64,000 nucleotides of DNA from NCBI GenBank assembly GCA_017656135.1, contig JACDOJ010000001.1:62001-126000 (forward strand). Reading direction: 5' to 3'. Shown piece by piece: positions 13,812 through 58,891 of this stretch. Both the position numbers and the translations under genes were made by a program. Positions within the stretch are counted from its first letter, which is position 1. Every line of letters begins with the position of its first letter. This stretch comes from Bacillota bacterium (GTDB lineage Bacteria; Bacillota; UBA5301). A model generated the notes under the pieces. It was not told the DNA's origin. It was given only the letters and a program-made list of their open reading frames with translations, and made no database searches.

Positions 13812-14897
13812 GTGCAGGTCTTCCAGGATACTGGTGGCTTGATCGCGATCTATGTGGGGGCGGTGGTTGGAGCTGGATTCGCCACCGGTCAGGAGATCAA
13901 CCAGTTTTTCGTCGGTTTCGGCCGCTGGGGCTTGGCGGGAGTTGCAGTAGCCGGGTTTCTTTTGGTCTTTTTAGGGAGGCTGATCCTGGTTTTTACCTAC
14001 TTCCACGGGCTAGCCGATTACCGTGAAGGGTTAAAGGTGCTTCTGGGGCCGGTAGGATCCAAGGTGGGGGATGCTATGACCAGCTTTTTCCTCTTTGGAG
14101 GGCTGGCTATAATGCTGGCCGGCGGAGGTGAGGTTATCGCTCATCTGGGAGTGGCCAAGGCACTGGCATCATTGGGGTTTGCCGGTCAGGTTTTGGCCGG
14201 TATCTCCGGAGGGCCTCAGAGGTTTACTCAAGTCAATAAGTTGTTAGTGCCTTTTTTGATTGGAATGAGTGTGCTTTTGGTTGCAGCCAGGTGGCTTTCT
14301 TGGTGGGAGGTACCTGTTGTTGCTGAAGGTATCCGACCGCCTTTGTTTACTATGGGGCTAATTACTCCTATGCTCCTACCCAACTGGCTGGTGGCAGCAG
14401 GTTTATACGCCGCCTTCAATCTTGGGATTGTCTTCACGGTGTTCTCTTCTTTAGGGGAAGTGATCTTAGACCGGCGGACAGCGGAGCACGGGGCGGTCAT
14501 TTCCGGGGGCCTGTTAAGCCTGCTCCTCGTCTTTTTCTACCTGGGAATCCTCTCTGTTCCCGGAGCTAAAGATCAAGCCATTCCCATGGCCTATGTGGCG
14601 GCCCAAGGGCCAAAGATTGCGCACCTGGCTTATCTCTTTCTCTTGATGGCGGCCATGTACACATCGGCGGTGGCCAACGGATATGCCCTGAGCCAGCGGT
14701 ATAAAGCCTGGTTCAGGGGTTCGGTTCCCCTGACTGCTGCTCTTTTTTTGTCTGGGGCCTGGCTCCTGGCTCGGGGTGGTTTCGTGACCCTGGTGAGCAC
14801 GATTTACCCTATCTACGGGTATTTGTGGTCGGTGGTGTTAATCATATTACTGCTTAAACGCATGTTTGCAGGTTGTATCTTTATAGGCTGCGAATAA
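13812..14897 (+). CDS. YkvI-like membrane transporter family
   Basis: IAIYVGAVVGAGFATGQEINQFF, multiple TM helices; GTG start at 13812 chosen over the longer ORF. Confidence 0.75.
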   Translation: MQVFQDTGGLIAIYVGAVVGAGFATGQEINQFFVGFGRWGLAGVAVAGFLLVFLGRLILVFTYFHGLADYREGLKVLLGPVGSKVGDAMTSFFLFGGLAIMLAGGGEVIAHLGVAKALASLGFAGQVLAGISGGPQRFTQVNKLLVPFLIGMSVLLVAARWLSWWEVPVVAEGIRPPLFTMGLITPMLLPNWLVAAGLYAAFNLGIVFTVFSSLGEVILDRRTAEHGAVISGGLLSLLLVFFYLGILSVPGAKDQAIPMAYVAAQGPKIAHLAYLFLLMAAMYTSAVANGYALSQRYKAWFRGSVPLTAALFLSGAWLLARGGFVTLVSTIYPIYGYLWSVVLIILLLKRMFAGCIFIGCE

Positions 14898-14904
14898 GTA
14901 GAGC

Positions 14905-15360
14905 ATGAGTACTGAAAAACTCAGATCTGCTCAGGAAAAACTGAATACCGGAAAACAGCTCATGAATCAAGGAGACTTCAAGGAGGCTGAGTCCATCTTC
15001 CAGGAGCTCATCGCCAAAGGGGAGCTAGTGAGCGATGCTTGGAACCAGTTGGGAGTTTTGAGAGTTAGGCAGAATAAGTCGGCTGAAGCCAGAGTATGTT
15101 TTGAAAAGGGGATCTTAGAGAACCCCACCAATCCGGCACCTTATTCCAATCTTGGCGCTCTGGCTCACGAAGAAGGGGATCTGGAAAAGGCCACAGAGTA
15201 TTGTCAAAGGGCCTTGCAACTGGATCCCGATTACCCGCCGGCCCTACACAACCTAGGGGTCATTTTCCGGAAGAAAGGAGACATTTGGAATTCTGTCAAG
15301 TACCTCAAGAGGGCCAATAGAGCGGAACTCCGGCGAAGACGCCAGAAGCGGACCAGGTAA
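14905..15360 (+). CDS. tetratricopeptide repeat protein
   Basis: multiple TPR units (NPAPYSNLGALAHEEGDLEKATEYCQRALQLDPDYPPALHNLG). Confidence 0.88.
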   Translation: MSTEKLRSAQEKLNTGKQLMNQGDFKEAESIFQELIAKGELVSDAWNQLGVLRVRQNKSAEARVCFEKGILENPTNPAPYSNLGALAHEEGDLEKATEYCQRALQLDPDYPPALHNLGVIFRKKGDIWNSVKYLKRANRAELRRRRQKRTR

Positions 15361-15381
15361 ATCAGATTTGGGGTCACAACC

Positions 15382-16758
15382 TTGTTTATTGTGCTTGATC
15401 TCTCCAAACGCAATATCATCCTAGCCATTTTTGTTGTCTTTGCTTGCCTGGTCATCGGTTCTTTGACCGGTTACTTGACCTATGACTTTCTGCGGACCGA
15501 TGTATTCGATGGGGTCTATCTGGATAACTTGCACCTGGGTAGGCTCAGCAAACAGGCTGCTAGGCAAAGAATTGAGGAGTATCTGGCCCCGCGTTTGAAA
15601 GAGCCTATCCATCTCGTGGTGGATGACCAAGTTTACACTTACACCCCACAGGCCTTGGGCCTCTCCTTCAATTACGAGGCGATAACGGAACTAGCCTTCC
15701 AAGCCGGTAGGCGAGGAAACTGGTGGCAGCAGCGGGCAGCCCGGCAGCGTATCCTCAAGAGCGGCCTCCGCATCACCCCTATCTTTCAGTGGAATGACAA
15801 TCAGTTGCAAAAAGCCTTGGTCACCCTGGGCAAGAAAGTTGAACGGCGCCCGGTTTCAGCTCGTTGGGAAGTTAGCTCCGGCAAGCAAGTGAAACTGGTA
15901 CCGGCCTTAAGCGGCCGGAAGATCGCTGTGGACGAGCTGAAGGCCAAATTGGAATCAGTTTTGACAGATGATCCTCCCTATGAAATCGACCTGCCTTTTG
16001 TGATAGTCAAGCCCCAACTGGACACGGAAGAGGCAGCGAATTTAGGAGTGGAGGAAGTGATTTCCTCTTTCCAAACCTACTTCAATCCGGAGAACACCGG
16101 GCGGGTCAAAAACATCACCTTGGCGGCTCAGGCCATCGACGGTAAGATCCTCCTGCCTGGGGAGACCTTCTCTTTCAACCGGTGTGTCGGCCCCCGCATA
16201 CCTGAGTCAGGGTACGAGGAGGCTCCTATTATCGTTAACGGAGAGCTGGTTCCGGGCATTGGTGGCGGTGTCTGTCAGGTCTCCACGACTCTCTATAACG
16301 CTGCTGTTCTGGCTGATCTGGGAATCCTGGAGCGCAATCACCACAGTCTGCCCAGTGCCTATGTGGAGCTAGGTCGGGATGCCACCGTTTTCTACGATTA
16401 TCTGGACCTCAAACTACACAACCAGAGCGCTCAACCGGTGGTTATCGATGCTGAGGTTAAAGATAACTACATCGAAGTCAGGCTTTTAGGTAAGTGGGTC
16501 TACGACTGGCGGGTCCAAGTCGAGGTAGAGAAGCTGGAAACCATTCCACCGGAGTGGAAAGAGGAGCCAGATCCCTCTTTGGAGCCCGGGGATCGAAGAG
16601 TGGTCAAAGAAGCCATGCCTGGGAGCAAGGTGCGGGTTTGGAAAAAATATGTAGGACCCCAGGGCTTAATTTCCCGGGAAATACTAAGTGTAGACACCTA
16701 TCAGCCCATCAACGGAGTGGTGAAAATACCAGCTGATTCCTACTTGGCCACAAATTGA
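15382..16758 (+). CDS. VanW-family / peptidoglycan-binding-like protein (YoaR-like)
   Basis: LPGETFSFNRCVGPR...GGGVCQVSTTLYNAAVLADLGILERNHHS VanW signature; N-terminal TM. Confidence 0.9.
   Translation: MFIVLDLSKRNIILAIFVVFACLVIGSLTGYLTYDFLRTDVFDGVYLDNLHLGRLSKQAARQRIEEYLAPRLKEPIHLVVDDQVYTYTPQALGLSFNYEAITELAFQAGRRGNWWQQRAARQRILKSGLRITPIFQWNDNQLQKALVTLGKKVERRPVSARWEVSSGKQVKLVPALSGRKIAVDELKAKLESVLTDDPPYEIDLPFVIVKPQLDTEEAANLGVEEVISSFQTYFNPENTGRVKNITLAAQAIDGKILLPGETFSFNRCVGPRIPESGYEEAPIIVNGELVPGIGGGVCQVSTTLYNAAVLADLGILERNHHSLPSAYVELGRDATVFYDYLDLKLHNQSAQPVVIDAEVKDNYIEVRLLGKWVYDWRVQVEVEKLETIPPEWKEEPDPSLEPGDRRVVKEAMPGSKVRVWKKYVGPQGLISREILSVDTYQPINGVVKIPADSYLATN
16668..16683. promoter_or_regulatory. 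Noc-binding site (NBS), 15/16 match
   Basis: AATTTCCCGGGAAATA containing full ATTTCCCGGGAAAT core. Confidence 0.7.
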
Positions 16759-17757: not shown

Positions 17758-17786
17758 AGCCGGCGAACCAGCCGGCTTTTTCTTTT
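17758..17786 (+). terminator. intrinsic terminator after ilvE
   Basis: AGCCGGC-GAACCA-GCCGGCT followed by TTTTTCTTTT. Confidence 0.85.
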
Positions 17787-17895
17787 GGAATAAAATCCAT
17801 CTTTATACAAATAATACCAACAGAGAAGTCATAATGGGCTTTTCCAGGAACATATATTGTTTCCAGGACTGGCCTGTAGATGGGGGGACAGGTTC

Positions 17896-18912
17896 ATGCC
17901 TAAATGGTTGGCGGGTGTGCTTAGTGTTTTATTGTTTTTTACAATAGGGGTCACCGTTTCAGCGGAGGTCCAGGACCGGTTGGTCTGGCCGCTCCCACCT
18001 CAAGAACCCAAAATCCAGTTTGTTAAGGCAATAAGTACATCAAAGGATATCGGGATGGAGAAACCCTCTTTCCTGCGGAAGTTAGTCTTAGGTAATGAAC
18101 CACCTAAGGTCTTTTTTGTTAAACCATACGGTGTGGCAGCTGATAGCAAAGGAAGGATCTATGTCACTGATACCGGGATACCTAGGGTGGCAGTCTTTGA
18201 TCCTGCCAACAAAAAGGCTTGGTATATCGGTAATGAAGGCAGGGGGCAACTTAGCCTGCCGATTGGCATCACAGTTGACTCCAACGACAACATCTATGTT
18301 GCCGATGCCATGCAACGGCAAGTCTTGGTCTACACACCGGAAGGGGAGGTTATACATTCTATCGGGGATCCTACCTTGTTGACCAACCCAACCGGCGTAG
18401 CTTTAGACCCGGAGGAAAAAGTCATCTATATAGCTGATTCCAAGTCCCACTGCATCTTTGTCTTTTCCAAAGAAACGGGAGAAGTGATTAATAAACTGGG
18501 GAAACCGGGGGTAGGCCCCGGCCAGTTCAATTATCCCACCAACCTATTCGTTGACCGAGAAGGCAACCTGTATGTTACGGACACTATGAACTTCCGGATT
18601 CAGGCCTTTGACCCGGAGGGTAAGTATCTCTGTGAGTTCGGAAAAGCCGGCGACACCGGTGGGTGTTTTGCCCGTCCGAAAGGGGTTGCCGTTGATTCAT
18701 TCGGGCACATCTACGTCATCGATGCCGCTTTCAACAACTTTCAGATTTTCAACGCCCAAAAACAATTGCTACTCTTTGTGGGAACCGGCGGCCAGGGTTT
18801 AGGGCAGTTTCGGTTGCCGGCCGGTATCTTCATCGATGACAACAACTACATCTATGTGGTGGACCAGTTAAACGCCAGGATTCAGATCTTTCGTTTCCTA
18901 GCTGGGGAGTAG
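17896..18912 (+). CDS. secreted NHL-repeat beta-propeller protein
   Basis: signal peptide then repeated PxGVAxDxxGxIYVxDxxxxRIQxFxxxG units. Confidence 0.9.
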   Translation: MPKWLAGVLSVLLFFTIGVTVSAEVQDRLVWPLPPQEPKIQFVKAISTSKDIGMEKPSFLRKLVLGNEPPKVFFVKPYGVAADSKGRIYVTDTGIPRVAVFDPANKKAWYIGNEGRGQLSLPIGITVDSNDNIYVADAMQRQVLVYTPEGEVIHSIGDPTLLTNPTGVALDPEEKVIYIADSKSHCIFVFSKETGEVINKLGKPGVGPGQFNYPTNLFVDREGNLYVTDTMNFRIQAFDPEGKYLCEFGKAGDTGGCFARPKGVAVDSFGHIYVIDAAFNNFQIFNAQKQLLLFVGTGGQGLGQFRLPAGIFIDDNNYIYVVDQLNARIQIFRFLAGE

Positions 18913-18947
18913 GAAAAGCATCTTAGCCGAGAAAGGAGGTGAATTAG

Positions 18948-19667
18948 ATGAGGAAAGTGTTAGTGTTTGCTGTCATTATAATATTTGGGTTGAATTTGGC
19001 TGCCTCTGCAGCTAGCATAGTCGGATCTAAACACGACCTCTCGTCAACAACAGGGATTACTAACGAGAGTCAGGTATGTATATTCTGCCATACACCTCAT
19101 GGCGCATCCAAACAGGGTCCGCTCTGGAATAGAGAGGCATCCACTGCGATCTATACTCCTTACGCCAGCGATAGCTTAAATGCTACTATAGACGAGATTT
19201 ATGGGAGTAAAGATGATGGCTCTGGTGGCACTATATTAAATGATGCTGGTTTGACGACGGGCTCTTCTCCGGATCTCTGTCTGTCCTGTCATGATGGTAC
19301 TGTAGCAGTGAATTCCCTTTTGAACACGTCAACTAATGATACTCTTCCTACAATGACAGCGGGCTTATCTCAGTTTGATGCAAACGGCAAGCTTATCAGG
19401 GAACCGGCACTGCTGGGAACAGATCTCAGCAATGACCACCCTGTGAATTTCATCTATTCTGAGGTGGCTACTGCTGATGCTGGAATTATGGCAGCAGATG
19501 CAAACGGTAAAACGGTTGCAGGCAAGCTACCATTATTTTCTGGTAAAATGCAATGCTCAACCTGTCATAACGTCCATGATCCAGGGACTGATAAGACTGG
19601 ACAGGAACCGTTCTTACGGGACAGCAAGGTTGGGAGTGCTATCTGTCTAGACTGCCACAATAAGTAG
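18948..19667 (+). CDS. tetraheme c-type cytochrome, OmcE-like nanowire-subunit candidate
   Basis: signal peptide; CIFCH, CLSCH, CSTCH, CLDCH; only 8 His in total (4 CxxCH + 4 other). Confidence 0.85.
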   Translation: MRKVLVFAVIIIFGLNLAASAASIVGSKHDLSSTTGITNESQVCIFCHTPHGASKQGPLWNREASTAIYTPYASDSLNATIDEIYGSKDDGSGGTILNDAGLTTGSSPDLCLSCHDGTVAVNSLLNTSTNDTLPTMTAGLSQFDANGKLIREPALLGTDLSNDHPVNFIYSEVATADAGIMAADANGKTVAGKLPLFSGKMQCSTCHNVHDPGTDKTGQEPFLRDSKVGSAICLDCHNK

Positions 19668-19677
19668 AGCAATTTGA

Positions 19678-19710
19678 CTCTAGGCGGGTGGCCCCAGCGC
19701 CCGCCTAGAG
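19678..19710 (+). promoter_or_regulatory. intercistronic hairpin without U-tract
   Basis: CTCTAGGCGGG...CCCGCCTAGAG 11-bp stem between the tetraheme and heptaheme cytochrome genes. Confidence 0.75.
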
Positions 19711-19720
19711 CCTGAAAAGG

Positions 19721-20428
19721 TTGGCGGACATAATGAAAATCTGCATTATACCTTTGACCATATTCTTATGTATTTCCATGGTCGGCTGTATCGACCATGA
19801 TTATCTTCTGGTGGCCAAAAAAGAGTATGAGATTAAGTACGGTCTGGCCTCACCGGAGATACAGAAAACTGAAGAAGCCCAAAAAGAACCACCTAAGCAG
19901 CACCTCCCATATTTAAACCGGGAGTGCACCTCCTGCCATACTGGGGCGGGATCGACAAAACTGGTAGCGAAGGTTATGGACCTGTGTCTAAGGTGTCACG
20001 GGTCGGCCCAAGACTGGCTGGAGTTTACCTGTCCTCATCCGCCTGTTTTAATGGGAGACTGCCTTGGCTGTCACGATGCTCATGAGTCGAGATATCCCTA
20101 CCACTTGACCAAGGCAGAACGGCTCTTATGCCTGGATTGTCACCGAGTGGAGCTTGGCCCGGAAATTGATAAGACAAGCCTAATCGAACACGCCCCTGTA
20201 AAAGAGGGTAAGTGCACCACCTGTCATAATCCTCACGGTTCGGATTTTCATCACTTGCTGTACAAAGATGCCGAAGAACTCTGTCAGGATTGCCATAATA
20301 GTACCAGCCGGGGGAGCCAAGCGCTATCTCTTAAATGTCAACCAGGCTGTCTCAAGTGTCATACTCCTCACGCCTCCAGTTATCAAGGTAGGTTACGAGC
20401 TGAACCACCTGGGGGTTTAAGCTCGTGA
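19721..20428 (+). CDS. heptaheme cytochrome, lipoprotein, doubled CXXCH type
   Basis: lipobox-like SMVGC; CTSCH, CLRCH, CLGCH, CLDCH, CTTCH, CQDCH, CLKCH. Confidence 0.87.
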   Translation: MADIMKICIIPLTIFLCISMVGCIDHDYLLVAKKEYEIKYGLASPEIQKTEEAQKEPPKQHLPYLNRECTSCHTGAGSTKLVAKVMDLCLRCHGSAQDWLEFTCPHPPVLMGDCLGCHDAHESRYPYHLTKAERLLCLDCHRVELGPEIDKTSLIEHAPVKEGKCTTCHNPHGSDFHHLLYKDAEELCQDCHNSTSRGSQALSLKCQPGCLKCHTPHASSYQGRLRAEPPGGLSS

Positions 20429-22368
20429 AAAGGTTGATAGTGATTGCTTTAATATGGATGCTTCTATCCTCAGGCCTGTCGGTACATGCACTGGAGTGGC
20501 GGTTCCTGGGTTTGACCTGGGTTGGAGGTTCCTTAAACTGGGTTATTGAGGTGGAAAAGAGCTCCGAGACCTCTGAACCCAAAACTTCCTTCTTACAGGA
20601 GTTAGAGGTGTTTACCAGGGGCTATGTATATCATCCCTATTTGCTTGATTTTACAGGTCAATTTAACCTTTCCAAGCGAAACGGGTCGGTAAATGAGTTC
20701 AAAATGGACGGCGGCACCGTAGCCATGAATATTCTCCGGACCAAACCCTACTTTGGCCGGTTAAGCCTCGGCAAAAAGGAACTGGAGGTCAATCCCCGGT
20801 ATTATGAGCCATACAACATTGCTCAGAAGTATTTAGAAGCAGGTGTTTTTCACAATACCTCTCATTTCCCGGGATTTTTAAAGTACTGCCGGACTTGGAA
20901 TAACGGTCTGGATTCGGCCAACCTATACAATACCGAAGAAGAATCAGTCAGTTATGAAGTCAGAAACCAGTTTACTAGGGATATGGAAGGGCGTTTGGTC
21001 TATGAAGACTACCAGGTGATCGATTTAAACGCTAACAGGATTCAGAGAAATCAGGATCTAAAAATCACTGCATCCAGCAATTTTGTTTATGAACTGATTC
21101 ATGTGGACACATCCCTATATAAAAGCAGGCGTAGCGGTAGCTTCAATTCAGAAAGCCAGCGAATCACTGCAAAAGGCTCAATCCACCATGATGTTAACCT
21201 TACTACCCATTTCAATACCAGCTATGCCAATACTGATTACCACAATAGTATCAACCAATCCGAAACCCAGGGTAATGTCAAAACAACTTGGAAAGTTACC
21301 CCGTCTGTAGAGGTATTTGTAGGTGCATCTGCTATTAGAGTTGAAGAAGCTGGCACCCTGGAGACCCTCCAAGGGGATTGGGGTTTACGTGGTCAGAAGG
21401 AGTATGGTGATTCGACGGTCTTTGGCAGGTATGAATTTTTTGCCCAGGAAATGAACGCCAGCGGAGAACGACGCTTTCACTTTTCTGAGGAATTGACCTT
21501 TAAAGGCACTGAATTAGTTTCCCTGACAGAACACGGGGTGCTTGTCGACACCATCGAGGCTACAGATAGTAAAACCGGGGAGAGGTACGTTCCTGGTGAG
21601 GACTACGCCTGTATTTGTGTGGGGGACGAGATTTACCTGGTGCGGTTGGCCACTGGTGACATGCCAGATCCAACAACAGCGGTAGTCAGCTATATTTTTC
21701 TTCGGGAACACGAAGCTGAAAGCCTGCAGGGCAATGTTGCTGCTATAGGAATAAAGAGCCCAATTACCAAAGACCTGAACTTCAGAGGAGAATTTGAATT
21801 AACCTCACAGTTGGTGAAACGTACTCTACACATTAATGAAGGTTTCAAACAGACTCTGCGAGTCAGTGCCGGTCTGGACTATGAAAAAGATGGTTTCTAC
21901 GGCGACCTGTTATATTCAGGTACGGCTCAGGAGAACAAGCTCGCTACCAAACTGGGCTGGCAGAGATGCCCCTGGCAGGCGACCTGGGAGCAACAGTATT
22001 TCCAGGGAGAGGAGTTCGTTCAAATCTCTGAACGCCAGTTGACCTATGAGCTCCGCACCTGGGGCAGGAGTCGGGGGCAGTTGACTTTAACCAGCACTGT
22101 TACCAAAAGAGAAGGGGAGCCTCGGGAAGATCTCTTCCAAGCCTACCTACAGTTAGACCAGCATTTTAACAACTACATTCAAGGCAAAGTGCGGGCCGGT
22201 TACCGCTGGTCATCCTTGAAGACACTGCTTAACGACTTCTTTCTCCGTTACGGGCTGGACTACCGGCAAGGACAGCTCAACTTGGAATTCAAGGGTGAGT
22301 ATGACTATAACTTTGCTCAAGATGCCAGTGAACAAAAGTATAGGTTAGGTATCAACAGGTTGTTTTAG
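20425..22368 (+). CDS. putative outer-membrane beta-barrel protein
   Basis: signal peptide, long alternating amphipathic strands, embedded GERYVPGEDYACICVGDEIYL module, C-terminal ...KYRLGINRLF ending in Phe. Confidence 0.65.
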   Translation: MKRLIVIALIWMLLSSGLSVHALEWRFLGLTWVGGSLNWVIEVEKSSETSEPKTSFLQELEVFTRGYVYHPYLLDFTGQFNLSKRNGSVNEFKMDGGTVAMNILRTKPYFGRLSLGKKELEVNPRYYEPYNIAQKYLEAGVFHNTSHFPGFLKYCRTWNNGLDSANLYNTEEESVSYEVRNQFTRDMEGRLVYEDYQVIDLNANRIQRNQDLKITASSNFVYELIHVDTSLYKSRRSGSFNSESQRITAKGSIHHDVNLTTHFNTSYANTDYHNSINQSETQGNVKTTWKVTPSVEVFVGASAIRVEEAGTLETLQGDWGLRGQKEYGDSTVFGRYEFFAQEMNASGERRFHFSEELTFKGTELVSLTEHGVLVDTIEATDSKTGERYVPGEDYACICVGDEIYLVRLATGDMPDPTTAVVSYIFLREHEAESLQGNVAAIGIKSPITKDLNFRGEFELTSQLVKRTLHINEGFKQTLRVSAGLDYEKDGFYGDLLYSGTAQENKLATKLGWQRCPWQATWEQQYFQGEEFVQISERQLTYELRTWGRSRGQLTLTSTVTKREGEPREDLFQAYLQLDQHFNNYIQGKVRAGYRWSSLKTLLNDFFLRYGLDYRQGQLNLEFKGEYDYNFAQDASEQKYRLGINRLF

Positions 22369-22382
22369 AGGGGTGTCAGAGA

Positions 22383-24161
22383 GTGAAGAAATTATCCAAG
22401 TTGGCAGTTGTTTGCATGGTAATCTGCAGTAGCGTTTTTTGGTCTGTTACCTGTTTTGCCACCATTCTTGACACTAAACATAACCTTTCTGTTTCAGGCC
22501 CAGCCACGGTCAAGGCCCAGACTGAGCAGCAGGTCTGCATTTTCTGCCACACTCCCCATAACGCTAACCCTGCAGTACCTCTCTGGAACCATCAAGTAAC
22601 TACCGCTACATACACAATGTACAACAGTGTGACTATGGACGCACCTGAGCCGGCTGGGCCGGGGTCTTCGGCTCTGCTCTGTTTGAGCTGTCACGATGGT
22701 ACTATCGCTGTGGGCTCGGTCCATGCCGGGACCATCACCATGTTGGGGACAAAAACCGACGGAACCATGCCGGACGGATTAAGCAACTTAGGGATCAACT
22801 TAGGGGATGACCACCCCATTAACATCCCTATTTCTCTCTCTGACGGCCAATTGGTTTCCCCCCTGCCCACAGACCCTGTCCACCTGGATGAAGAGGGCAA
22901 AGTTCAATGTATCAGCTGTCATGATGTCCACGATAATACTTATCCACCTTTCCTAGTAAAAAGCGATCTATCTTCTGACCTTCGATACGGCGGTGCTCTT
23001 TGTCTTTCTTGCCACAACATGCGGGGCTGGGAGGGATCAGCGCATCAGGAAGCCACCGAAGCAGAAATTACAGAAGAAGGTACTGTCGCCTCCAAGGCTT
23101 GCCGGGGCTGTCACATGGTCCACGGGTCCCAAGGGTATGGGGAACGCCTATTGTGCTCGGAAGAGCAGGCTTGTATTAACTGCCACAATGGCGTAGTAGC
23201 TCAGGATATCGGGAGCATGTTAAACTATTTTTCAGCCCATCCTATTGATTTGACCGGGCTGCATAATCCCACAGAAACCTGGGACTTGGATACCCAAAGG
23301 CATGCTGAATGCTGGGATTGTCACAACGGGCATGCTGCGGGCAATATAACTTATCACCCATCTGCCCTTGCAGGCCAGTGGGGGATTGAGCCTCAATACT
23401 TTGCTCCCTGGACAGATGCCAGCAGTTTCCAGGTAATATCAGAGGTGACAAAGGAGTATCACCTGTGTTTCAAGTGTCACTCCTCTAGGGCATATGGGGT
23501 TAACCCACCGGTTTCTCCGTCTAGAAGCATGCAGTTTTCCAACAGTGACCAACCACAGACTAATGTAGTCAGGGATTTTAATCCAGGAAATGCAGCAGTT
23601 CATTCCATCTATCAACCCAACCCTCGGGCGGGAACAGTCGGTTTAAATGGCTTGATAAACGGATGGACTTGGAGCTCCATACTAACATGCAGTGATTGTC
23701 ATGGCTCAGCTAATGCCCAAGACCCTGCCGGCCCCCATGGCTCATCATCCAGGTTTATCCTTAAGGGAGATTGGCTGTACCTTCCGGATGAAGACCCGAC
23801 TTTGACAGGAGTTCCTGGCACCGGAGACCACCTCTGTTTCGACTGCCACGACTATAACCTGTATGTATCGGGGATGAGCACGTCAGGAACTCTGTTTATA
23901 AAGAGCAGCGGCAAAAATCTCCATGCCCTTCATATGAACTTTAATAAATCAGTTGAAAGGGGAGTTATCGGGTGTTCCAGCTGTCACTCGGCTGTTCCAC
24001 ATGGATGGAACAAACGGGCATTAATCGTTGAAGATGGAGACCCAGCCCCTTACAGGCAGAGTCAATACCAGCTCAAGATTCTCTATTGGCCCAGTACGCC
24101 AGGCAGCTGGGATACCGACAACTGCAACACTGAATGTCACCGAGGGTATCACTGGGGCTAA
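22383..24161 (+). CDS. multiheme c-type cytochrome, about 12 heme motifs, OmcE-like N-terminal module
   Basis: 11 CxxCH plus one CX3CH (CNTECH); N-terminus TKHNLSVSGPATVKAQTEQQVCIFCHTPHNA...PLWN parallels the 18948 protein. Confidence 0.85.
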   Translation: MKKLSKLAVVCMVICSSVFWSVTCFATILDTKHNLSVSGPATVKAQTEQQVCIFCHTPHNANPAVPLWNHQVTTATYTMYNSVTMDAPEPAGPGSSALLCLSCHDGTIAVGSVHAGTITMLGTKTDGTMPDGLSNLGINLGDDHPINIPISLSDGQLVSPLPTDPVHLDEEGKVQCISCHDVHDNTYPPFLVKSDLSSDLRYGGALCLSCHNMRGWEGSAHQEATEAEITEEGTVASKACRGCHMVHGSQGYGERLLCSEEQACINCHNGVVAQDIGSMLNYFSAHPIDLTGLHNPTETWDLDTQRHAECWDCHNGHAAGNITYHPSALAGQWGIEPQYFAPWTDASSFQVISEVTKEYHLCFKCHSSRAYGVNPPVSPSRSMQFSNSDQPQTNVVRDFNPGNAAVHSIYQPNPRAGTVGLNGLINGWTWSSILTCSDCHGSANAQDPAGPHGSSSRFILKGDWLYLPDEDPTLTGVPGTGDHLCFDCHDYNLYVSGMSTSGTLFIKSSGKNLHALHMNFNKSVERGVIGCSSCHSAVPHGWNKRALIVEDGDPAPYRQSQYQLKILYWPSTPGSWDTDNCNTECHRGYHWG

Positions 24162-24273
24162 GATGATGGAAAATAAAGGAAATTAAGCTTGGGCCCGGAA
24201 TTTAATACTAGGCGTGCTTTTCGAGTCCCCTGTCGCGTAAGAATGTGGAAGAGGTGCGTTTGGGGGGATTAGT

Positions 24274-25242
24274 ATGGCTATTTTTAAAGCCGCCGTGGTT
24301 CAGCTCTCCATTTCCGACCTTAGCAACAAATCCTGGCCTGAGGTGGAGAAAAAGCTGATTTTCCTTTTCTCACAAGGTGTCGAATCCGGTGCCGACCTCG
24401 TGGTTTTCCCAGCTCTAACTGGTTTGTTATTCTCACCTGAATCTCGAAAATCTCTGGAATATGGGTTCGATCACAAAACTGTGCAGCTGGTTTCCAGGCT
24501 CAGCGGTTTTTGGACCAAAGAGTGGTTAGATTTCTTCACTTCCCTGGCCAGAAACTACCGAGTACTGGTCGTCCCAGGGAGCTCTTTGGAGCCAACAAAA
24601 GATGGCATGCTACACCGGGCCTACCTCATAGGCGAAAACGGGGAAGAGCTTTTGGTCCAAGACCAAACTCATTTCACCCTCTCCCAGCAGGGCATCAAGT
24701 TCCAGCCTGGTGATAGTCTGGAGATTGCCGAGACTTCAGTGGGCAAAATCGGCTTGATTCTCTCCGAAGATGTCTGGCTGCCTGAAATTGGCAGGATCCT
24801 GGCCCTTGAAGGGGCCGACCTCTTGATCAATCTACAGGCTGTAAGGAACTTCTACGACTACCGCCGGCAGTTGGCTGGGAGCTGGCAAGTGGCCCAATCC
24901 AACCTGGTCTACGTGATCGAGAGTTGTTTAGTGGGGCGGGGGATAGGCCTTTCTTACCAGGGCCTTTCAGCCATATTTGCTTCCAGATCGGTGCAGCCCA
25001 ATGCGGGCATTCTCGTTCACATCGACCCGCTTTTCACCAAACTGGAGGAAATAGATCTTGGGTACATGATCTCTCCTCAAAAAGAGAAGGAGGGGGTCCT
25101 CATCCGAAACTTGGATCTGGACCTTTTGGCCAAACACCGGCAAGAACGGTCCATGGGCAGACCTCCCTACCTTACTGAGCTAAGTCAGGTCTATACTGAT
25201 CAGGTTGCAGTAAACCGGACATTAGGAGGGGAGGAAAGATGA
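24274..25242 (+). CDS. nitrilase-superfamily protein, probably catalytically inactive
   Basis: fold motifs GADLVVFPA and GKIGLILSEDVWLPEIGRILALEGADLLINL with the E, K and C positions replaced. Confidence 0.78.
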   Translation: MAIFKAAVVQLSISDLSNKSWPEVEKKLIFLFSQGVESGADLVVFPALTGLLFSPESRKSLEYGFDHKTVQLVSRLSGFWTKEWLDFFTSLARNYRVLVVPGSSLEPTKDGMLHRAYLIGENGEELLVQDQTHFTLSQQGIKFQPGDSLEIAETSVGKIGLILSEDVWLPEIGRILALEGADLLINLQAVRNFYDYRRQLAGSWQVAQSNLVYVIESCLVGRGIGLSYQGLSAIFASRSVQPNAGILVHIDPLFTKLEEIDLGYMISPQKEKEGVLIRNLDLDLLAKHRQERSMGRPPYLTELSQVYTDQVAVNRTLGGEER

Positions 25243-26186
25243 AGATTCCAGCCATTTTGCGGGAGAAGATTAATCTGGAGCCCCTGAATGAACTCTATTA
25301 CGAGTTCAAGACCTTCTGGCTCGTCCATCCGGAACGGGTGAAACGCATTGTCTCAATCTCCGGGCCTGGCGGGCCGGAAAACAGCCAACAGGTTAAGGGC
25401 AAAGTCGCCTTTGTGAGGGCCTCGGCCCTGAAAGGAGCTACTTTAGCTGACCTGGCCGCAGTCTGTGGAGAAGTCATCTCTAGGGCCAAGGCCTCCGGAG
25501 CGGGGTTGGTGGTCTTTTCCCCAGAGGCAGGCGACCTGCTGTTGCAGCTGGCCCCCTATAAGTCCCCACGGGTCTTTCGACAGGTGCAGGAGGCCTTCCA
25601 CTCCTTCTGGTCCAGTCTGGCAGCTAAGTATCACCTGTGGCTGATTCCTGGTTATCGGGAACTCCATGCCAAGCGGAGGCATAAGAGGGTGGCTTTCATT
25701 TATGACCCGGAGGGCCAAGGCGACTACCAGACCCAGGTCCAGTACACCAAGGAGGAGTTGGCCCAGGGATTTGAGCCGGCCAGGAGCATCAAGGTATGGC
25801 AGACCGGGGCAGGTCCGATCTCTCTCTCCTTTCCTGGGGAGGAGCAGTTTTTTGAAATCGGCCGGGTAATGGCAGCCAAGGGAGCTAAAATAGTCGTATC
25901 CCTGGCGGCTTGGAACCGGCCTTTTGAGGTCTCGGATGTCTCCGGGGGTTGGGCTAGGGCCCAGGAGAACAACTTCTACTGGTTGACTTCCAGCCTGACT
26001 TTGTCCCCGGTGGGTGCCAGCATTGACGGAAGCGGGGTGCTGGCTCACCCAATTCGTGAGGGAGAGGATCTTGTGCTTGTGCAAGTCAATCTTGATCGCC
26101 TGGCTGAGATGGCCAACGAAGACTCCCGTGGCCAGGTGAAGATGCGCAAAGAGTTCCTGAAACGCTATTTGCCTACTTTATATTGA
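25239..26186 (+). CDS. second divergent nitrilase-superfamily protein, catalytic Cys absent
   Basis: GAGLVVFSPEAG, QYTKEEL, GPISLSFPGEEQFFEIGRVMAAKGAKIVVSLAAW; start overlaps the previous gene (ATGA). Confidence 0.72.
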   Translation: MKIPAILREKINLEPLNELYYEFKTFWLVHPERVKRIVSISGPGGPENSQQVKGKVAFVRASALKGATLADLAAVCGEVISRAKASGAGLVVFSPEAGDLLLQLAPYKSPRVFRQVQEAFHSFWSSLAAKYHLWLIPGYRELHAKRRHKRVAFIYDPEGQGDYQTQVQYTKEELAQGFEPARSIKVWQTGAGPISLSFPGEEQFFEIGRVMAAKGAKIVVSLAAWNRPFEVSDVSGGWARAQENNFYWLTSSLTLSPVGASIDGSGVLAHPIREGEDLVLVQVNLDRLAEMANEDSRGQVKMRKEFLKRYLPTLY

Positions 26187-27517
26187 AAGGAGTGGTCTTG
26201 GTGCCCAGAATTTTCTTAGGCCTTTTGCGGACAAGCCTGGTGCTGGTAGTTTTCCTCCTCTGTCAAAAGAATCCCTGTCTGGCTGCATCTTTGGACTTGG
26301 AGTATGTAGCCGGCCAGGGTGATGATAGCTATGCCCTCATCGACTGGAGTTACCCCTTTTCTCCCGCCCTCAATTGGGAGGCGGAATTAAACCCTGATTT
26401 GCGCTACTACTCCAGTTTTGGGGTAGGGAAGTGGCGGGTTTCCACTGAGGTGAAAGTCACAGGTGACGATAAGTGGGACAAGCTTACTGCCAGATACACC
26501 CACTACCGCTATCCGGAAACCCCCTATCAGCTCTGGAATCTGGGAGTTGAGCACAAAAGCGCACTTCAGGCTTGGTGGAACCAGGGTGCAAAGGGGTCCT
26601 GGCGCCTGAAGGTCAAGGGCGAATACAAAACTTATCCTTCTGCTCGGGACCGGGACTACCTGGCCGGAGAGTGGGAGCTCTATTCTGAGTCCACCGATCC
26701 CTTGATAGCCCCAGGGTACACTGGAGGTGAATTCTGGTCTCAGACCTTTTTCGATTATGCCGTGGGCCGCGCCCTCCAAGGGGATGAGTTTTTTCTGGAT
26801 TCCTGGGTCCTAGGCGAAATGGTGCTGGAGGACGATGCTGATGAGTACACTCCTCCTTGGGCTAGGTCCTCTGACGAACTTTCTTCCAAGCTGATCACCA
26901 AAATCTCCGGTGGTTGGTCAAAGCATTTCCGTAAACCGAATTACACCTGGCAGGCCCAGAACTATGAGCTTCAGTGGCAGCAACGGACGAGCCCCGAGAG
27001 CAGCCTTAAATTCGGCCTGCGGAAGCTGGAGAAAAACTACCCTTATGAATTGCTAAAAACCTACTACAGCCGGGAGCACCTAGTCCGCTGGTTCAAGGCC
27101 GGGAAGAAGGTCTGCTGGGAAGTGGGAGGCTGTTATGAAACCCAGCACTGGCTGGACGGAGACGGCCAGGAGGAATACCAGATCTGGATTGAGGGGGAAA
27201 GGGCCGACCACTCTCTGAAACTCATTGCCGAACTGGAAGATGAAGTCTACAACCAGGAAATGAAGGTGAAGTCCACCTACGGTTATGACTTTGAAAACTG
27301 GTTCGGCCTCTCAGGTTATTGCCGGGTGGGACTTGAAAGGGAGTTCGACCTAATGACTCAGGCGACCGAGACTGAGGTCAGGGCATCCCTCAAACTCAGC
27401 ATGGAAGTAGGCCAAGATTGGGAGGTTTTCACCCGTTTGGAGGCCAGTCGGGAGTGGGAGGAGTTAGCTATAAATGACGATTGGGGTCTGAAAATAGGTG
27501 TTAAAGTAGAGATCTAA
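26183..27517 (+). CDS. secreted beta-strand-rich protein, second putative barrel
   Basis: signal peptide (LVVFLLCQKNPCLAAS), repeated alternating aromatic/charged strands, C-terminal strand WGLKIGVKVEI. Confidence 0.55.
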   Translation: MKGVVLVPRIFLGLLRTSLVLVVFLLCQKNPCLAASLDLEYVAGQGDDSYALIDWSYPFSPALNWEAELNPDLRYYSSFGVGKWRVSTEVKVTGDDKWDKLTARYTHYRYPETPYQLWNLGVEHKSALQAWWNQGAKGSWRLKVKGEYKTYPSARDRDYLAGEWELYSESTDPLIAPGYTGGEFWSQTFFDYAVGRALQGDEFFLDSWVLGEMVLEDDADEYTPPWARSSDELSSKLITKISGGWSKHFRKPNYTWQAQNYELQWQQRTSPESSLKFGLRKLEKNYPYELLKTYYSREHLVRWFKAGKKVCWEVGGCYETQHWLDGDGQEEYQIWIEGERADHSLKLIAELEDEVYNQEMKVKSTYGYDFENWFGLSGYCRVGLEREFDLMTQATETEVRASLKLSMEVGQDWEVFTRLEASREWEELAINDDWGLKIGVKVEI

Positions 27518-57985: not shown

Positions 57986-58891
57986 ATGAAAAGCCCATTT
58001 CTCATGGTAGTGCTCATTCTAATTGCCGTCGGCCCGACAGCCCAGGGAGCCTGGCCCCACGGCGGCCCTGGGGAAAACGCCTACTGTTTGGCCTGCCACA
58101 GTGTGCATAAGGCTTCCGCCAGCCACCTCCTGCGAGGCGGAACGGTTATGTGCGCCAGCTGTCACGCCTTTCAGGATCCGAAGGGGCTCTGGCCGGGTCT
58201 AGAGGCTTTTGAAGCCTCGGCTCACAACGGGCTCTGCACTGACTGCCACAATCCTCACGGGGCCCGGGATGGCCAGGGGCAAATCCCTCACTTGGCGGTG
58301 GAGCGAGGTGAGAGACTCTGCTTTGGCTGTCACCTAGAAGTGGCGGAGGAGTTCGCTGCGGCCAAAGAATTGGAAGCCGCGACAGGGGTGCCCTCCAGAC
58401 ACCATGTGGGCCGGCCGGGCACTCAGGTTTCCTGTATAGACTGCCACAACCCACACCTGGTGGAGAAGATGGTCACCGGGTATGAAGCCCGGGTGACCAA
58501 TCCCAACAACCCTCTGCAAAAAGTGCCTTTCCGGGGCAATATGACCGTGAACAAATACTGCCTGGTCTGCCACAACGGCAGCCGAAACCAGGCCCCTGAC
58601 ATTTTAGCGGAGATTAAAGGCGAAGGGGAGGTCACAGAGTTTTTCGCCCTCACTACTGGGGACCCCCTACACCAAGTGCACTTGAACCGAACTCATAGGC
58701 AGAACTGTCTCCTCTGCCACAATCCCCACGCCAGCAGAGGAGCTCTTGGGGTCAACCGGGGCCGCCTCCTTTACGACCTAAAAGTAGAGTATTTTGATCA
58801 GGGTTATCCGGGGTACAACTCCTGTGAAACCCAGTGCCATGGCGAGAGGTGTGGTTCCTGTCACCAGGCTCCTCCCTTCGACCATGATTAA
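57986..58891 (+). CDS. nine-heme-motif c-type cytochrome
   Basis: signal peptide; CLACH, CASCH, CTDCH, CFGCH, CIDCH, CLVCH, CLLCH, CGSCH plus CX3CH (CETQCH). Confidence 0.88.
   Translation: MKSPFLMVVLILIAVGPTAQGAWPHGGPGENAYCLACHSVHKASASHLLRGGTVMCASCHAFQDPKGLWPGLEAFEASAHNGLCTDCHNPHGARDGQGQIPHLAVERGERLCFGCHLEVAEEFAAAKELEAATGVPSRHHVGRPGTQVSCIDCHNPHLVEKMVTGYEARVTNPNNPLQKVPFRGNMTVNKYCLVCHNGSRNQAPDILAEIKGEGEVTEFFALTTGDPLHQVHLNRTHRQNCLLCHNPHASRGALGVNRGRLLYDLKVEYFDQGYPGYNSCETQCHGERCGSCHQAPPFDHD

Follow-up and report, generated by a model that had tools for sequence, protein, structure and literature searches.

The window analysed here, a stretch of 64,000 nucleotides belonging to a 1.9 Mb genome (G000) in a class represented by seven genomes, very probably encodes at 17857-24161 an extracellular electron conduit of the Uet/OmcE type in a diderm Firmicute, with an independent neighbour module at 24274-27517. 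An initial annotation had described both parts as a single operon of eight co-directional genes behind a clear terminator. Its layout is confirmed at the coordinates: the eight ORFs are intact on the + strand (17857-27517), with exact stop/start overlaps at 20425, 25239 and 26183, a largest intergenic gap of 112 bp (24162-24273), and a terminator-like hairpin with a T-run that a consensus scan located at 17758-17777. The + strand, however, carries nearly all genes between 0.4 and 42 kb of the window, so that the common direction of the eight genes is uninformative. The features are as follows.

17758..17786, + strand: terminator-like hairpin and T-run that ends the aminotransferase gene upstream and bounds the cytochrome block on the left (consensus scan)
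17857..18912, + strand: secreted NHL beta-propeller, predicted UetH/I-like role (Pfam NHL, 1.5e-34)
18948..19667, + strand: OmcE-family tetraheme cytochrome, predicted filament subunit (7TFS, E 1.1e-29; eight invariant His)
19721..20428, + strand: 7-heme MtrA/DmsE-like lipoprotein cytochrome, predicted transmembrane wire within the barrel (TIGR03508, 5.9e-21; 6R2Q chain A, 9.4e-13; lipobox SMVGC)
20425..22368, + strand: predicted outer-membrane barrel 1, MtrB-like fold (pLDDT 81; 6R2Q chain B, E 2.2e-9)
22383..24161, + strand: undecaheme cytochrome with N-terminal OmcE domain, UetJ-like (7TFS, E 1.1e-27; motif count)
24162..24273, no strand: seam gap between the modules, 112 bp (GC 48.5% before, 53.5% after)
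24274..25242, + strand: NitA, nitrilase-fold pseudoenzyme (Cys to Ser), separate module (Pfam CN_hydrolase, 2.6e-16; motif LSEDVWLPE)
25239..26186, + strand: NitB, degenerate nitrilase-fold protein, separate module (Pfam CN_hydrolase, 1.1e-7; Cys and Lys positions lost)
26183..27517, + strand: secreted strand-rich protein, possible barrel 2, separate module (pLDDT 34; porin matches at E 0.01-0.05; 3/399 phylum genomes)

Two of the starts may lie further downstream: that of the NHL gene at an in-frame ATG at 17896, 13 codons after the listed TTG, and that of the lipoprotein gene at an in-frame ATG four codons after its listed TTG.

Cytochromes and barrel of module 1

The tetraheme (18948-19667) is, as judged from its sequence, an OmcE-family cytochrome, and its first description as a nanowire-type protein holds: residues 15-239 give a full-length match to the OmcE filament 7TFS with four CXXCH motifs, and a second solved cytochrome, 9YUQ, is also matched. 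All of its eight His, four in the CXXCH motifs and four others, are invariant in nine homologues, indicating that bis-His ligands are conserved for all tetraheme hemes. The large cytochrome had been called a 12-heme fusion. The fusion is real, with residues 23-212 matching 7TFS as an N-terminal OmcE domain and a further multiheme part C-terminal to it, while the count of 12 is not borne out by 11 CXXCH motifs and one CX3CH; the orthologue in another genome of the set (G001) has 11 motifs. In the alignment, the OmcE domain of the undecaheme keeps the same eight His as the tetraheme.

MtrA has 10 hemes, and the lipoprotein of this locus has seven, in line with the heptaheme lipoprotein of the initial annotation. 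It is MtrA/DmsE-like by TIGR03508, its best sequence match in the PDB is chain A of the Mtr complex (6R2Q), and its gene overlaps that of barrel 1 by 4 bp. Barrel 1 has no Pfam family, and neither Pfam nor NCBIfam models recognize it. The structure prediction that had been proposed as a check gives, with 40 homologues, a large barrel (pLDDT 81) whose best fold match in the PDB is MtrB, chain B of the same 6R2Q complex, at E 2.2e-9 and with a TM-score of only 0.44; on this model, barrel 1 is an outer-membrane barrel with an MtrB-like fold.

Family identities, conserved heme ligands, the barrel fold, the gene order and the outer membrane of the host are the sequence- and structure-based part of the picture, and module 1 is well formed and probably functional. 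In the proposed scheme, the MtrA-like lipoprotein would thread the MtrB-like barrel and carry electrons across the outer membrane, the undecaheme outside the cell would take them and hand them to a filament polymerized from the OmcE-like tetraheme, and the NHL propeller would probably aid secretion, assembly or docking. The direction of electron flow in this scheme is one that we infer, and an inward conduit, by which the cell would draw electrons from Fe(II), minerals, partners or cathodes, is somewhat unlikely but has a precedent in the Uet pathway, which is named for cathode-oxidizing Tenderiales (PMC10734462). Against it, Geobacter uses OmcE for reducing Fe(III) oxides (PMC12307469), and no feature of the locus decides the direction.

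It is rather improbable that the tetraheme and undecaheme form no filament and act as soluble or surface-bound carriers or as extracellular reductases. Polymer formation is not readable from sequence, and what cytochrome filaments do physiologically is a matter of dispute even for Geobacter (PMC11077965); the tetraheme is nevertheless homologous to the OmcE filament over its full length with every His ligand kept, and neighbouring OmcE subunits share a heme ligand at their interface (PMC12307469). If the filament reading is followed, the undecaheme may be a cap or an anchor of the filament, as its conserved fusion to an OmcE domain suggests. Tentatively, the undecaheme may be a dedicated adaptor, whose OmcE domain stands in for a subunit at the base of the filament and whose C-terminal heme part docks on the conduit of barrel and lipoprotein. 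Such an adaptor, if true, would account for the joint occurrence of OmcE-type wires, NHL proteins, barrels and the fusion in many phyla, and for the connection of a cytochrome filament to the outer membrane; in any case, the conserved OmcE-domain/undecaheme fusion makes the question of wire-to-cell attachment testable.

Distribution and the seam between the modules

The genes of both modules were sought at 78 named loci that surround OmcE homologues and come from many phyla. An NHL homologue is found at 69 of them, in agreement with the remark in the initial annotation that NHL proteins lie near such clusters, a barrel 1 homologue at 57 (never more than one each), the C-terminal part of the undecaheme at 54, and an MtrA-like gene at 36. 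The barrel 1 family was obtained by iterated profile search among the ORFs of these same loci, and its E-values refer to this small, enriched set. Exactly 11 CXXCH motifs are present in 48 of the 54 large cytochromes, and a multiheme gene, most frequently with five motifs, lies within 500 bp upstream of the barrel at 32 of the 57 barrel loci. No OmcE-type genes were found on plasmids. By contrast, nit and barrel 2 genes occur at none of the 78 loci; genes 1-5, unlike genes 6-8, show conserved co-occurrence.

The eight genes constitute two modules, 17857-24161 and 24274-27517. In a sister genus (G002), genes 6-8 are found at the same site without cytochromes, in the order aminotransferase, NitA, NitB, barrel 2, BadF and prs; aminotransferase and NitA are separated there by about 137 bp, and the OmcE/NHL/barrel cluster of that genome is on another contig. 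Module 1 has a GC content of 48.5%, against 53.5% for module 2 and 52.6-52.8% for the flanking DNA, and the GC step together with the largest gap marks 24162-24273 as the seam. The low GC is in line with insertion of the cytochrome block; alternatively, the arrangement in G002 may reflect loss of the block from that genome.

A single eight-gene system is very unlikely; in it, the pseudo-nitrilases would act in the cytosol to regulate or chaperone the conduit, and barrel 2 would serve as a second conduit or a secretion pore. The genes are tightly packed, with two overlaps inside genes 6-8, and the order of all eight is identical in G001, but adjacency of the nitrilase module within a long co-directional run is weak evidence. 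Genes 6-8 stand without cytochromes in G002 and are absent from the OmcE-type loci; another genome (G004), with a fused NitA-NitB, has no doubled-CXXCH match; and nitrilase pairs are widespread in the phylum, whereas the tetraheme is found in 8/399 phylum genomes, Frackibacter among them. Under the two-module reading, the envelope-spanning conduit plus filament originally proposed for a Firmicute is retained as a porin-cytochrome conduit with a nanowire-type cytochrome, and loses the nitrilases and barrel 2 as members.

The Glu-Lys-Cys triad of the active nitrilase superfamily is incomplete in both NitA and NitB: the catalytic Cys is replaced by Ser in NitA and is absent in NitB, where the Lys position is lost too. 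Active enzymes are thereby ruled out, and with no signal peptide visible in either protein, the labels "pseudo" and "cytosolic" given to them at first are upheld. The product of 26183-27517 had been taken for a second barrel; a strand-rich model agrees with this, and its pLDDT of 34 and best matches to porins at E 0.01-0.05, with none below E 1e-3, leave it a possible barrel. It was found in 3/399 phylum genomes, in three genera only, with about 40% identity among them. This conservation, in the least known of the eight products, rules out chance ORFs.

Tandem CN-hydrolase pairs are known in other places in the phylum. A NitB-like gene with an adjacent NitA-like gene is present in about 40 of 300 phylum genomes (counted from a listing), and the host genome itself carries another pair on contig C17. 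These pairs (L029:7918-12895 on C17, L026:8604-11854 and L216-L227) consist of a pseudo-nitrilase, its Cys replaced by Gly or Ser, and a nitrilase that keeps the Cys, are conserved through the phylum, and often lie directly behind a GH125-like gene (assigned by Pfam for L029 and by eye for the others) and near a sugar-type MFS transporter. The pair in the window resembles those of L029 and L216-L227 in having NitA and NitB side by side, and differs in the loss of the catalytic Cys from both and in being followed by barrel 2 instead of the transporter; it is a degenerate second copy of the phylum tandem. In G004, a class member without doubled-CXXCH cytochromes, the pair is fused into one 814-aa protein (L028:9576-12017). 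The same locus encodes, at 14748-16727, a protein that combines starch-binding domains (AMPK1_CBM/CBM48/CBM20) with a barrel-like C terminus ending GINF, possibly a starch-binding outer-membrane protein.

Outer membrane and other cytochromes of the host

Omp85/BamA is encoded in all seven genomes of the class, which rules out a monoderm host without use for barrels. The BamA locus of the host also encodes TamB, OmpH/Skp, LpxD, LptF/G, LptC and LptA-like proteins, and by this gene content the host is a diderm Firmicute of the LPS type, with a genuine outer membrane. The LptD Pfam was unmatched across the class, which is uninformative because the model matches only two proteobacterial controls.

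Doubled-CXXCH cytochromes are present in six of the seven class genomes. ResB and CcsA-type cytochrome maturation genes are found elsewhere in the host genome, in which the NrfB-like Pfam has no match. A NapC/NirT-type cytochrome also lies elsewhere in it, beside another tetraheme and NHL gene; in this row (L113:3964-6201, contig C51), a NapC/NirT-type pentaheme, a small tetraheme and an NHL protein possibly connect the inner membrane with the periplasm. Two genera (L111:1650-8279 on G000:C7 and L116:1878-8691 on G002:C30) carry a second fusion with an OmcE domain and 11 CXXCH motifs, which has no barrel beside it and adjoins ResB, CcsA-type assembly and B12-radical-SAM genes. The window contains a second multiheme cytochrome gene at 57986-58891, for a secreted Paired_CXXCH/MtrC-domain-like protein with eight CXXCH motifs.

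Comparison with known systems

The gene set of module 1 is not undescribed, contrary to what had been proposed, for it is found again across many phyla and agrees with the published Uet pathway and with OmcE-type nanowire clusters; OmcE homologues are already known to be widespread (PMC12307469). A literature search, with subscription papers mostly outside its reach, brought up no account of this set from diderm Firmicutes. Most work on cytochrome nanowires and porin conduits concerns Geobacter and Shewanella, and the compact set in this class and in Frackibacter, a member of Halanaerobiales with the order cytochrome, NHL, tetraheme, barrel, tetraheme, NHL and large fusion, allows distant comparisons among lineages that have retained the outer membrane.

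The closest likeness in composition is to the Uet pathway (undecaheme electron transfer) of Tenderiales and Gallionellaceae, in which an undecaheme, an extracellular tetraheme, an outer-membrane barrel and NHL proteins are encoded together (PMC10734462). Genes of the UetJ, UetA, UetC and UetHI types are present here by composition alone, with one NHL gene and with the 7-heme lipoprotein in the block. No PPIase (UetB) and no periplasmic trihemes (UetDEG) are encoded at 17857-27517, and the locus is therefore filed as Uet-like and not as Uet proper. Like MtrAB of the Mtr complex (6R2Q), an MtrA-like multiheme is directly followed by an MtrB-like barrel, whereas here the former is a lipoprotein with seven hemes, and the undecaheme stands in place of an MtrC homologue. 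The tetraheme shares with OmcE of Geobacter sulfurreducens (7TFS) its full length, four CXXCH motifs and all eight His, but has a diderm Firmicute as its host, where a further copy of the domain is joined to a multiheme part. A locus of Geoalkalibacter ferrihydriticus (Ga0056053_02426-02431) similarly combines MtoA-like and OmcE-like cytochromes with two NHL proteins, and differs in its order, its extra cytochromes and the lack of a barrel named there (PMC12016550). Module 1 thus appears to be a porin-cytochrome conduit of a Uet-like kind that includes an OmcE-type filament protein, and neither Uet nor MtrCAB in the strict sense; its likeness to the Tenderia pathway is judged by composition.
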